Origin: Candidatus Woesearchaeota archaeon
GTDB taxonomy: Archaea > Nanobdellota > Nanobdellia > Woesearchaeales > BM511
Assembly (NCBI GenBank): GCA_002867475.1
Contig: PKTL01000082.1
Span: 1-48,520, forward strand
Length of the DNA: 48,520 bases
Reading direction: 5' to 3'
Part shown: one piece after another, positions 17,488 through 38,256 of the stretch
Position numbering within the stretch: the stretch's first letter is position 1
Layout: the number at the start of each line of letters is the position of its first letter
Notes under the pieces: model-generated
Database searches by the model: none
Told to the model about the DNA's origin: nothing
Seen by the model: only the letters and a program-made list of their open reading frames with translations
Made by a program: the position numbers and the translations under genes

Positions 17488-19380
17488 ATGGCAAAAATAA
17501 TCGGAATCGATCTGGGAACAACATTCTCAGCAGTAGCAGTACTCGAAGGAGGAAAACCAGTAATAATACCAAATAGTGAAGGTGCAAGAACAACACCTTC
17601 AGTAGTGTCAATAACAAAAGAAGGAGAAAGACTAGTTGGTCAAGTTGCAAGAAACCAAGCAATAACAAACCCAGAACACACAGTAAGAAGTATTAAAAGG
17701 TACATGGGCGAAGACTATAAGTCAAAAATATGGGATAAAGATTACACACCTCAAGAAATAAGTGCGATGGTTCTACAAAAATTAAAAAGCGATGCTGAAA
17801 GCTATCTTGGTGGAAAAGTAGAAAAAGCAGTAATCACAGTTCCAGCATACTTCACAGATTCACAACGTCAAGCAACAAAAGACGCAGGAAAAATAGCAGG
17901 ATTAGAAGTAGAAAGGATAATCAATGAACCAACAGCAGCAAGTTTAGCTTATGGGATTGATAAGTCAGATGATCATACAGTATTGGTGTTTGATTTTGGA
18001 GGAGGAACATTTGACGTTTCAATACTTGAATTAAGTGATGGTGTATTCGAAGTAAAAGCAACAAATGGAGACAATCATTTAGGAGGGGATGACGTTGACC
18101 AAGTAATCATAGATTGGTTAGCTGAAGAATTCAAAAAAGAAACAGGTGTTGATTTAAAAGCTGATAATGTAGCACTTCAAAGATTAAAAGAAGCAAGCGA
18201 GAAGGCAAAAATAGAATTATATGGAAAAACAACAACAGATATCAATTTACCTTTCATAACAGCAGACCAAAGTGGTCCAAAACATTTAAACAAACAACTA
18301 TCAAGAGCCAAATTTGAACAAATGATTGGTGACATAATTGAAAAATTAAAAAAGCCAACAGAACAAGCATTAAAAGATGCGAAAATGAGCTCAAGCGACA
18401 TACACAAAGTAATATTTGTTGGGGGAAGCACAAGAATCCCAGCAGTTCAAGAACTAGTTAAAAAAATAACAGGAAAAGATGGAGATAAATCAGTAAATCC
18501 AGATGAAGCAGTAGCAATGGGTGCAGCAATCCAAGCAGGAATACTTGGTGGAGAAGTAAAAGATGTATTACTTCTTGACGTAACACCTCTTAGTTTCGGA
18601 TTAGAAACACTAGGTGGGGTATTCACAAAACTCATTGAGAAAAACACAACTATTCCAACAAAGAAAAGCCAGATATTTAGCACAGCAGCAGATAATCAAA
18701 CAGCTGTAACAATAAGGATAGCACAAGGAGAAAGACCTATGTTTAATGATAATAAATTACTTGGAAACTTTGATCTTATGGGAATTCCACCAGCACCAAG
18801 GGGAGTGCCGCAAGTAGAAGTAGAATTTGACATTGACGCTAATGGAATCCTAAATGTGAAAGCAAAAGATCTTGGAACTGGAAAAGAGCAAAGCATAAAG
18901 ATAACAGCATCAACTAACTTAAGTGATGAAGAAATCGAAAAGATGAAAAAAGAAGCTGAAGAAAATCTAGATGCTGACAAGAAAAAAGCTGAAGAAATAG
19001 AAACAATAAACACAGCAGATACTTTAGTTTATTCTTCAGAAAAAATGTTCAAAGATTTCGAAGGAAAAGTTGACGAAAAAGAAGTAGAAGTTGTCAAAAA
19101 AGATATTGAAGAATTAAAGAAATTAAATGAAGCAGAGACTAAAGACATTGAAGCAATGAAGAAAAAAATTGAAGAAATCAATGAGAAAATTCAAAAGCTT
19201 TCAACAGAACTTTATCAAAAAGCAGCAGCAGAACAACAAGCAGCACAAGCAGCGCCCGGTGGAGCACCAGGTGAAGAAACAAGTGATGGTAAAAAAGAAA
19301 AAGTTGTAGATGCAGAAGTTGTAGATGATGAAAAGTTTGACGATGAAAAAGACGATAAGAAAAAAGAAAAGAAGGAATAA
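17488..19380 (+). CDS. dnaK: Molecular chaperone DnaK (Hsp70)
   Basis: ATP-dependent foldase of 630 residues. N-terminal ATPase domain with [47 protein letters not shown] and [11 protein letters not shown]; the [14 protein letters not shown] linker; substrate domain; and helical lid. The tail is Ala/Gln/Gly-rich then strongly charged ([14 protein letters not shown]) instead of a classical EEVD. The short quadrant ([15 protein letters not shown]) is the Gram-positive form. Archaeal Hsp70 genes are known to be of bacterial origin and this one fits. The start is preceded by a leader ORF that owns the strong ribosome site. Confidence 0.97.
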
Positions 19381-19430
19381 TTTCTTCTAACTTTATTTTT
19401 TTTTATTAAATGAAGTGAATACTCATCTAT

Positions 19431-19684
19431 TGGACATAGTCCAGAGATACAAAACTCTGTTTTAGTATCTTTTAAGGTGAGGATGTGCTATTTTACACAT
19501 ATTCACACAAAGAGAGCTAAGCTCTCTTGTGCCCTGAAGAGTTATACTCTTCATGTGCTTCATGCTCAAAGACCAAGTATGATTTTGCATTTGATGCAAA
19601 ATACATACAAAAATTATTTTTAATAATTTTGTACACAAGAGCTTGCCTCTTGTTGTACTTCGGGATTTAGTCCGGGGTCTTTGA
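19431..19684. ncRNA. Hairpin array, candidate structured RNA
   Basis: This gap of 338 bp holds no gene but about nine consecutive hairpins: 19431-19443 (5 bp, loop ATA), 19445-19470 (11 bp, one bulge, loop TCT), 19477-19506 (4+5 bp), 19506-19531 (11-12 bp, one bulge), 19536-19552 (7 bp, loop TAT), 19582-19602 (9 bp, loop TTG), 19606-19633 (12 bp, one bulge, loop TTT) and 19635-19653 (7 bp). TCAAAGACC (19566-19574) pairs with GGTCTTTGA (19676-19684), closing the last three into a multibranch. I see no RNase P, SRP or tRNA consensus. It could equally be an intercistronic mRNA structure; strand is uncertain. Confidence 0.5.
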
Positions 19685-19718: not shown

Positions 19719-20360
19719 ATGAATATACCTACGGTTCCTGAATGCTACAGATTAATGAGTGAATATAGTTTACCAATAAACATTATTAGACACTCTGAAC
19801 AAGTTGCAAAAATATCTGTGTTTTTAGGTAAAAAATTAATTGAAAAAGGAAAAGAAATAAATCTTGAACTATTAAGGGTTAGTGCTTTACTCCATGACAT
19901 AGCCAAACCAATTGACTTTAAACATTTTAAATTAGATCCTAATTTTACTAGTTTTAAACCATCAAAAAAAGATGTTGAAACTTGGAAAAAATTAAAAGAT
20001 GAAAGTGGAGATTTAAAACATGAACAAGCAGGGGTATTGCTTCTTCAAAAATTAGGTTATGTGGATGTAGCAAAAATAGTTGGAAAACATGGATATTCGA
20101 AAGTAATTGAAGGTTTTGATAATTATGAAGAAAAAATATTATATTATGCTGATAAATTAGTAAAACATGATCAAATAAGACCTATGAAAGAGAGGTTAGA
20201 AGAAGGCCACAAAAGGTATGTGGGAGGACCTCCATATAGTAAAGAAGTTGAAGAAACTGACAAAAAAATATTTGAACTGGAAGAGGAACTCTTAAAAAAG
20301 GCAGGTGTTTCCCAAAAGGATATTATAGAACTAAATAATATCTGTATAGATAAGGTTTAA
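19719..20360 (+). CDS. HD-domain phosphohydrolase in the chaperone operon
   Basis: A 213-residue HD-superfamily protein. Metal ligands: H25 (IIRHSEQVA), H59-D60 (ALLHDIAKP), a later GKHGY and D at YYADKLVKHD. HD proteins hydrolyse phosphate esters of nucleotides or signalling molecules; the substrate here cannot be told. GGTGAT lies directly upstream of the ATG. The gene sits between dnaK and dnaJ and ends 3 nt before the dnaJ start, so the two are co-translated. This is an unusual member for a chaperone operon. A PhoH- or tRNA-metabolising-type HD role is possible but unsupported. Confidence 0.85.
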   Translation: MNIPTVPECYRLMSEYSLPINIIRHSEQVAKISVFLGKKLIEKGKEINLELLRVSALLHDIAKPIDFKHFKLDPNFTSFKPSKKDVETWKKLKDESGDLKHEQAGVLLLQKLGYVDVAKIVGKHGYSKVIEGFDNYEEKILYYADKLVKHDQIRPMKERLEEGHKRYVGGPPYSKEVEETDKKIFELEEELLKKAGVSQKDIIELNNICIDKV

Positions 20361-20363
20361 AAA

Positions 20364-21497
20364 ATGAGCAAGAAGGATTATTATGAATCATTAGGAATCT
20401 CAAAAGATGCATCTAAAGAAGAGATAAAAAAAGCTTACAAAAAGCTTGCAAAAAAATATCACCCAGACTTAAATAAGGGTGATCCAAAATCTGCAGATAA
20501 ATTCAAAGAGATAAATGAAGCCGCAAGCGTACTAACTGATGATAAGAAAAGAGCAAACTATGATCGTTTCGGAACAGCAGACGAACAGTTTCAAGGATTT
20601 GGCGGAGGAAGCGGATTCGATGGTTTTGGAGGATTTGGTGGAGGCGACTTTGGCGGTTTTGAGGACATATTTGAATCATTTTTTGGCGGAGGTGGAAGAC
20701 GAAGCCGAAAAAAACGAGGTGGGCCAATACCTGGAGATGATTTAAGGTTTAGCATGACAATCACTCTTAATGATGCCTATGAAGGTATTGAAAAAGAGAT
20801 AAGATATAATAGGCTTGGAACGTGTACAACATGCAAAGGCAAAGGTGCAGAGAATCCTGATGATATCGAAACTTGTGAAATGTGTGGGGGTGCAGGTCAA
20901 GTCACTCAAGCACAACGAACACCTTTTGGAGTTTTTCAAACAACTAAAACCTGTCCAACTTGCCGTGGCGAAGGAAGAACCATAAAAAATCCATGTAAGA
21001 CCTGTCAAGGTGACGGAAGAGTTGATGAGAAAAAAACTCTGAAAGTTGATATACCTGCAGGAATCGATGAAGGACAATCATTAAGGATAAATAATGAAGG
21101 TGATGCCGGCATCAAAGGGGGTTCATACGGTGATCTTTATGTGCAGATTAGCATAAAAACTCATAAAATTTTTGAAAGACATGGAAGAGACCTTTATATG
21201 GAAATGCCTATAAGCATAACACAAGCAGCAATAGGTGGAACTATTGAAGTGCCGACAATGAAGGGCAAATCAACACTTAAAATTCCAAGTGGAACTCAAA
21301 GCGATACAGTGTTTCGGATGAAAGACAAAGGATTTCCAACTATTGGAGGAAGCGCTAGAGGAAGTCAAATGGTAAAAGTGATTGTGGAGATACCAACTAC
21401 TTTGAACAAGAAGCAAAAAGAGCTTTTGGAAGAGTTTGAGAAAGCAAGTGAAAGTCCACAAAAGAAATTCTTTGATAAGATTAAAAACATGTTTTAA
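20364..21497 (+). CDS. dnaJ: Co-chaperone DnaJ (Hsp40)
   Basis: Type I J-protein of 377 residues that delivers substrates to DnaK and triggers its ATPase. The J domain (1-70) has HPD at 33-35; a Gly/Phe region follows (FGGGSGFDGFGGFGGG); four CxxCxGxG zinc repeats are CTTCKGKG, CEMCGGAG, CPTCRGEG and CKTCQGDG; then come the two C-terminal beta domains and dimerisation end. Length is normal. GGTTTAAAAA before the ATG is a weak ribosome site and translation is probably coupled to the HD gene. Confidence 0.97.
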   Translation: MSKKDYYESLGISKDASKEEIKKAYKKLAKKYHPDLNKGDPKSADKFKEINEAASVLTDDKKRANYDRFGTADEQFQGFGGGSGFDGFGGFGGGDFGGFEDIFESFFGGGGRRSRKKRGGPIPGDDLRFSMTITLNDAYEGIEKEIRYNRLGTCTTCKGKGAENPDDIETCEMCGGAGQVTQAQRTPFGVFQTTKTCPTCRGEGRTIKNPCKTCQGDGRVDEKKTLKVDIPAGIDEGQSLRINNEGDAGIKGGSYGDLYVQISIKTHKIFERHGRDLYMEMPISITQAAIGGTIEVPTMKGKSTLKIPSGTQSDTVFRMKDKGFPTIGGSARGSQMVKVIVEIPTTLNKKQKELLEEFEKASESPQKKFFDKIKNMF

Positions 21498-21886: not shown

Positions 21887-21920
21887 AAATTTGTGGAAAG
21901 AATATTCTTTCCACAAATTT
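21887..21920. terminator. Perfect 34-bp palindrome between convergent genes
   Basis: A perfect 17-bp inverted repeat with no spacer (left arm AAATTTGTGGAAAGAAT) lies between the 98-aa gene (+) and the H1-like gene (-). In RNA it forms a long hairpin from either strand. No long T-run follows on either side, so bidirectional termination or mRNA end protection is likely but not certain; a dimeric regulator site is the alternative. Confidence 0.6.
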
Positions 21921-37704: not shown

Positions 37705-38256
37705 TTATTTCTTTACACTAGAATTATTCATAATTCTGTGTGCCAAAGAGCTTACTCTTTGAGCATATTTTTTTAATAAGAAAAGATCTCTTGCACCCAT
37801 AAATTCTGCATGGTAATCTGTTGGTTTATCTTTTTCACTTAGCTTGATTGCATCGTCAAGGCTTAACCATTCTAAGTAAAAACCTTGTTTAATCTCTTTT
37901 TCAGTAAAAGAAGGTATTCCAACATTATCAATTTCTTTTCCATAGAAACAGTAGGATATCAATTTTTTCTTGATATCATCTCTATATTCAATAGTCATTC
38001 CTAATTCTTCAAACTCTTCAACAACTGAACCTGATTCTTCCATGAGTTCACGCTTCAACCCATCAATAATATCCTCTCCTTCATCAAGTCCGCCACCAGG
38101 AATCTTATGGATACCAATATTTTTAGCATGAAGAATTGCAAGCTTGCCATCGTCTCTAACAACTACACATCTAGCAGCTCGCCTTACTGAATAATCAATA
38201 TTTTCAATATTATCATAACCAAAATCGCTATTCCTAAATTCTTTTATGAGCTCCAT
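37705..38256 (-). CDS. Nudix hydrolase
   Basis: A 183-residue Nudix enzyme with a textbook box GGLDEGEDIIDGLKRELMEE plus SG, preceded by AARCVVVRDDGKLAILHA and IHKIPGG. It is of the general NTP-pyrophosphohydrolase/ADP-ribose type; the substrate cannot be named from sequence. The C-terminal 40 residues (DYHAEFMGARDLFLLKKYAQ) form an extra helix region. It has its own TATA-like TATTAATATATG on the minus strand. Confidence 0.9.
   Translation of the reverse strand: MELIKEFRNSDFGYDNIENIDYSVRRAARCVVVRDDGKLAILHAKNIGIHKIPGGGLDEGEDIIDGLKRELMEESGSVVEEFEELGMTIEYRDDIKKKLISYCFYGKEIDNVGIPSFTEKEIKQGFYLEWLSLDDAIKLSEKDKPTDYHAEFMGARDLFLLKKYAQRVSSLAHRIMNNSSVKK

Follow-up and report, generated by a model that had tools for sequence, protein, structure and literature searches.

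The window analysed here, a 48,520-nt stretch of a Candidatus Woesearchaeota genome, carries on its forward strand the genes for the chaperone DnaK (Hsp70; 17488-19380; Pfam HSP70, 807 bits), an HD-domain protein (19719-20360; Pfam HD, 45.7 bits) and DnaJ (20364-21497; Pfam DnaJ and DnaJ_C). Of 118 genomes searched, 34, including the genome under study, have a homologue of the HD-domain protein, often between dnaK and dnaJ, and the dnaK-HD-dnaJ order is conserved. The stop codon of dnaK is followed by a T-rich tract (19392-19406, forward strand), which is probably the archaeal terminator of this gene, and directly downstream of the tract lies the hairpin element that is the subject of this report. 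Beyond the gene cluster, the intergenic region at 21887-21920 contains a perfect 15-bp palindrome, AAATTTGTGGAAAGAATATTCTTTCCACAAATTT, which does not belong to the family of hairpin pairs described below and is possibly a bidirectional terminator.

The first-pass annotation recorded a run of about nine hairpins between dnaK and the HD gene, and refolding confirms it. The 254-nt region 19431-19684 reaches -89.9 kcal/mol on the forward strand (shuffled sequences, -53.7 kcal/mol, sd 4.7; z -7.8) and -88.8 kcal/mol on the reverse strand (z -8.9), and none of 200 shuffled sequences equalled the real fold on either strand. Many of the hairpins indeed have three-base loops, and the 9-bp closing stem, TCAAAGACC/GGTCTTTGA, lies at exactly 19566-19574/19676-19684. 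The 3' end originally given to the run stands, whereas its start has to be moved upstream from 19431 to 19410, where ATGAAGTGAATA (19410-19421) forms the 5' arm of another long-range stem. A search of a 701-base region against Rfam returned nothing above the gathering score and three sub-threshold matches only. We compared the dnaK-HD gaps of 29 relatives, of which seven had no usable dnaK or HD match, four had gaps that were too short and 18 could be folded, some of these gaps containing other genes. Strong structure was found in two of the 18 (G003, z -6.0; G058, z -4.6), and the gaps of G001 and G002, which belong to the same family as our genome, are not strongly structured. This sparse occurrence suggests that the structure is an occasional guest of the dnaK-HD gap rather than a conserved part of it. 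The two structured gaps (L364 in G003 and L390 in G058) contain other hairpin stacks, and a CTTTAG loop is common to several hairpins across different genomes.

The region resolves into a composite, putatively mobile hairpin element of 275 bp (19410-19684, no strand assigned), in which two long-range stems, A and B, are joined by a GC dinucleotide and each hosts a nested pair of hairpins, hereafter a doublet. The 5' arm of stem A, ATGAAGTGAATA, is the perfect complement of a 3' arm that is split into TATTCA (19500-19505) and CTTCAT (19558-19563) by doublet 1 (19506-19557). When 19506-19557 is removed, the two halves join and stem A is again a perfect helix of 12 bp; in a set of 90 × 14 = 1,260 trial excisions, 46-59 nt in length, none but this one and its one-base shift has that effect. 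Doublet 1 has the layout CAC-a-[8-bp hairpin]-GTG / CCC-[8-bp hairpin]-t-GTG and matches the covariance model of the family with 63.0 bits (E 4.9e-12), being itself one of the 13 sequences from which this model was built. The GC linker (19564-19565), shared with other copies of the same type in the genome, leads into stem B, which is the 9-bp closing stem given above (5' arm TCAAAGACC, 19566-19574; 3' arm GGTCTTTGA, 19676-19684) and within which lies doublet 2 (19608-19657; 35.3 bits, E 2.8e-5), a weaker match to the model than doublet 1, with an end uncertain by one base. Doublet 2 is missing from a related element, X, described below. After removal of both doublets, the remaining 173 bp still form stems A and B, and their alignment to X scores 130, compared to 96 for the full element, which suggests that the nine hairpins represent an older element and two guests. 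A third doublet of the window (37716-37765; 40.8 bits, E 1.3e-6) sits at the 3' terminus of an open reading frame on the minus strand (37705-38256), the last residues of which it would encode.

The BLAST search for further copies recommended in the first-pass annotation proved productive within the same genome, where it recovered partial copies of the window element. Resolving these yielded element X (136 bp), ATGAAGAGTATA...TATACTCTTCAT-GC-TCAAAGAC...GTCTTTGA. The genome has two copies of X that are nearly identical, with halves on four contig ends (C7/C17 and C65/C21, where either left end may belong to either right end), as would fit an assembly breaking at the repeat. A deletion derivative of X is carried by C5. 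The linker motif TTCATGCTCAAAGA occurs at nine places in the genome with at most one mismatch, compared to none for the reversed pattern, and led to additional copies at C21:2344, in which both stems are simple hairpins, C65:24655, which by eye lies within an open reading frame, C82:21601 and C21:78066. Across the copies in this genome, the sequence of stem A varies with pairing kept, and the GC linker and a TCAAAGA arm recur. By eye, a T-rich run directly precedes each of the four copies whose left side can be seen (window, C7, C65 and C5). The GC-linker hairpin pair in the C82:21600 region (L024) appears by eye to adjoin a duplicated tRNA 3' end; ARAGORN detected no tRNA in eight loci, including one overlapping the C82 copy (L081).

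Outside the genome of origin, BLAST with the window element against 59 relatives produced chance-level matches only, because the stems are not conserved by sequence. The linker motif occurs in 144 relatives at roughly background frequency, and by eye no such hairpin pair is present at four places in relatives with an exact match. Used as a 15-mer against viral contigs, TTCATGCTCAAAGA gave matches of which those listed were taken as chance, and the same loci were reused as the negative control of the covariance model. A one-mismatch look-alike of the window linker region, ATGAAGAG...CTCTTCATGCTCAAAG, is found in an intergenic region of a distant relative (G043:C37:55258, L253). Furthermore, G228 carries a nested hairpin element of 168-287 bp (L326-L336), mostly intergenic and with the right end TCAAG...CTTGACA, which shares its stem-GC-stem layout with the window element.

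The base unit of the family is the doublet, that is, two back-to-back hairpins, in its commonest form about 52 bp long. In this form, one base is left unpaired in each hairpin, three pairs above the foot; hairpin 1 has it on its 5' side and hairpin 2 on its 3' side, which gives both strands of the doublet the same shape. Many pairs share a plan consisting of a foot triplet, an unpaired base, a stem of about 8 bp, a loop of 3-5 nt and the closing foot, followed by the mirror image; the feet, inspected by eye, are CAC/GTG, CCC/GGG, CGC/GCG, TGC/GCA and similar. A census of short, perfect hairpins yielded 19 tandem pairs in 440 kb of the genome under study (0, 0, 2 and 0 in four shuffles), 19 in 336 kb of G228, from stretches partly picked around known copies (1, 2, 1 and 1), eight in 316 kb of G003 (2, 2, 4 and 0) and nine in 329 kb of other relatives (1, 1, 0 and 2). 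Mirrored bulges were present in 16 doublets (five in our genome, two in G003, nine in G228 and none in the others), compared to a single doublet, in our genome, with the opposite arrangement (none in G003, G228 or the others). Because a single repeat accounts for seven of the nine G228 doublets, the independent count is about 10 versus 1.

In the 13 doublets of the model, 96.3% of the cells are paired, a figure favoured by the choice of some of these sequences for forming hairpins, and two-sided changes affect 16 of the 23 pairs. Cells changed on both sides number 71, compared to a mean of 20.9 after shuffling and to 5 to 10 when the structures are slid by 1-3 columns. Among 62 distinct matches to the model, in which 50 different hairpin-1 arms occur, we counted 1,307 Watson-Crick, 20 G-U and 58 mismatched cells. 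The G-U cells account for 26% of the non-Watson-Crick cells, which is not above our expectation from single mutations. The compensatory changes whose absence from relatives would, according to the first-pass annotation, have refuted its reading are present, but their pattern points to DNA palindromes rather than RNA, since G-U pairs, which a structure selected at the RNA level should tolerate, are rare. We read the doublet stems as palindromes kept in DNA, and, judging from its covariation, the family seems to conserve its shape and not its sequence.

Several comparisons of filled and empty sites indicate how doublets enter their targets. For instance, a DinD-like gene on C16 of our genome (G000:C16:43578-43630, L257) is broken by a 53-bp doublet, the removal of which restores a frame of 271 aa with a Bro-N domain; the restored frame has a collinear DinD match across the junction, albeit a weak one (19 bits, below the curated cut-off). 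In G228, a long repeat occurs with and without a 54-bp doublet, its copies differing by precisely that unit, and in G182, two doublets occupy two places of one repeat, each place being empty in other copies, as judged by eye with some flanks read as N. No target duplication was found at the window, dinD (C16), G228 or G182 sites. The filled/empty comparisons, in which the empty sites are paralogous or reconstructed and none comes from the orthologous locus of the same species, agree with the doublet ends defined by the model. Among 65 places matched by the model, eight are in reading frames: six doublets have lengths divisible by three and keep the frame, one of these open reading frames (L443) being doubtful, and two (53 and 50 bp) break it. 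As a case in point, the gene for a Bud32 kinase (L438, G094:C25) contains near its start an in-frame 54-bp doublet encoding 18 extra residues; without the doublet, the family model aligns from position 1 (197 bits) instead of position 13 (194 bits). In three of the 65 places, the flanks, once joined, make up one arm of a palindrome around the doublet, compared to none or one when the cut is shifted, suggesting that doublets enter other hairpin elements. Across 120 flanks, A is preferred at position -3 (70 of 120), and there is no fixed word. At the level of sequence comparison, these data show doublets to be dispersed, multi-copy units that insert precisely into genes, into intergenic regions and into other elements of this kind, in their arms or loops.

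The doublets are widespread. A search of 287 genomes with the pattern CACT-N-GTGCAC-N-WGTG, which also produces many chance matches, identified multi-copy doublets, e.g., at 13 places in G228 and five in G221. With the covariance model, matches at E <= 0.01 were obtained in at least 116 of the order's 193 genomes, with E reaching about 1e-13 for the best match; each place is counted on both strands, and the E-values are rough. Owing to the model filters and to the scoring of at most 30 candidates per genome, the genome counts are lower bounds. Applied to 1.27 Mb from 93 sources, chosen partly for carrying matches, the model produced 122 matches that correspond to the 65 places, three of them in the window, and it gave no match at E <= 0.1 in the 779 kb of viral contigs used as control. 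A strict A-rich doublet pattern, representing one subtype only, was found in a single record among 84,980 genomes, a set from which records near our own genome were possibly left out, and in none of the viral contigs; the record is from archaeon SI037_bin40 and has the same coordinates as G171:C36. Several identical doublet copies each are present in G100, G182, G228 and G038. Searches of the open-licence literature brought up no description of such elements in DPANN or these archaea.

Taken together, we consider it likely that the hairpin run consists of nested, tiny mobile hairpin-pair DNA elements and is not a control element of dnaK. A hairpin-based mobile or capture element had been among the candidates of the first-pass annotation, and this one is backed by the genomic repeats, the nested precise insertions and the filled and empty sites. 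An older, longer stem A-GC-stem B element probably received doublet 1 into stem A and doublet 2 into stem B, giving the nine hairpins. An enzyme acting in trans would recognise the unit in its folded, single-stranded form and move it as such, comparable to the proposed movement of REPINs by RAYT. Intra-hairpin template switching or conversion would gradually rewrite the stems while leaving Watson-Crick pairing intact. Counting against mobility, no Y1 transposase was found in our genome or in G228, G043, G100 and G171, and the stems of most copies in our genome differ from one another, unlike those of recent transposons. A later, putative effect of the inserted stack on transcription is possible.

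The ends of IS200/IS605 transposons form hairpins with unpaired bases, and these transposons use single-strand chemistry and generate no target duplication. Doublets could be MITEs of an ordinary IS200/IS605 (Y1 TnpA) transposon missing from the assembly: their hairpin ends and insertion without target duplication fit peel-and-paste movement, and Y1 genes are present in some relatives (G221 and G114, with a fragment in G001). We consider this origin unlikely, however, given that a search with PF01797 (Y1) gave no match in our genome, the assembly being 95% complete, or in four of the six carriers tested (G228, G043, G100 and G171), including G228 with its 13 places of one doublet, and that no doublet pattern was found at three loci around the Y1 genes of relatives. 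The absence from our genome and from most tested carriers argues against a Y1 transposase as partner. A search for an autonomous form between neighbouring doublets covered three loci and turned up one open reading frame, in G013, which by eye has no transposase features. The integron integrase IntI recognises folded attC hairpins via their extrahelical bases, and an analogous tyrosine recombinase acting on single-strand sites might be considered, as the covariation suggests recognition by shape and an extrahelical base rather than by sequence; yet the doublets are isolated, symmetric and nested and are not gene cassettes, which makes this alternative improbable.

Template switching is known to perfect quasi-palindromes, and replication errors of this kind could generate hairpins in A+T-rich spacers without involving any mobile unit, as the perfect stems, their differences from copy to copy and the rarity of G-U pairs would have it. 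This origin is very improbable in view of the narrow size of about 50 bp, the mirrored bulges, the exact insertions with clean empty sites and the identical copies in G100, G182, G228 and G038, but template switching may well be the source of stem diversity after insertion. Finally, the stretch between dnaK and HD could act as structured RNA in the chaperone operon, whether by attenuating, by offering a processing site or by stabilising the mRNA. The strong fold on the transcribed strand, the position among co-oriented genes and the structured gaps of G003 and G058 could be cited for this role, yet it is highly improbable, because only two of 18 foldable relatives share a structured gap and same-family G001 and G002 lack it, the opposite strand folds equally well, G-U pairs are few, and copies occur at unrelated loci, two parts of the structure being insertions. 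The chaperone-operon candidate of the first-pass annotation is thus not supported, and neither is its structured non-coding RNA, for which Rfam offers no match above the gathering score and the stems vary by Watson-Crick changes with few G-U pairs.

As a tentative extension of the mobile-element interpretation, the heritable identity of the doublet might be its DNA shape: an archaeal enzyme other than RAYT or IS200 transposases would recognise the two-hairpin, mirrored-bulge fold and move the doublet without target duplication, the stems being rewritten. If so, the family would spread through most of an order while being largely invisible to sequence searches, and its self-nesting into its own arms would build 'hairpin trees' like the one at dnaK. 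Present in at least 116 of 193 genomes and even in conserved genes, such as that for Bud32 kinase, the doublets would constitute a large unannotated source of change in the spacers and proteins of small archaeal genomes. As the stems vary with pairing kept, they possibly provide a natural record of palindrome rewriting at the DNA level. The doublet family turns the search for the mobilising enzyme into a defined problem.

Among known systems, doublets resemble IS200/IS605 elements in inserting without target duplication and differ from them in the lack of a Y1 match in our genome or in G228. Having no target-site duplication at any of the four sites compared (dinD, G228, G182 and window), they stand apart from TIR-type MITEs, and the likeness to integron attC sites is by analogy, in shape only. 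Mitochondrial double-hairpin and repetitive hairpin-forming elements are reported to be short and dispersed, with some in genes, and those of sponges to have conserved stems and variable loops (PMC2800124); on this comparison by description only, the archaeal doublets differ in that their stems vary with pairing kept. Rickettsia palindromic elements reportedly form families of about 150 bp and make frame-keeping insertions in protein genes (PMC10969869, PMC3733652). Doublets are likewise palindromic and found in protein genes, keeping the reading frame in six of eight cases, and differ in being about 50 bp long and conserved by shape more than by sequence. The closest parallel is offered by REPINs and BIMEs, miniature units of two short inverted hairpins that are described as dispersed and mostly intergenic, with compensatory changes, REP dimers inside larger palindromes and a CGTC class without known transposase (PMC3116915, PMC3733652). 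Doublets similarly combine two hairpins in mirrored arrangement into one dispersed unit; they differ in that no GTAG/CGTC foot was recognised by eye, stems differ between copies, our genome has no RAYT (Y1), and the hairpins abut (GTGCAC or GC), most REPIN hairpins being reported as 20-100 bp apart. A survey of 172 archaeal genomes reports only the IS200-type Y1 subclass 1.1 and no RAYT class (PMC6006769). Because no Y1 was found in our genome and in four of six carriers, the doublet is not established as a REPIN; it works like one, as its shape, insertion without target duplication and nesting fit the single-strand hairpin transposition proposed for REPINs (PMC3116915).
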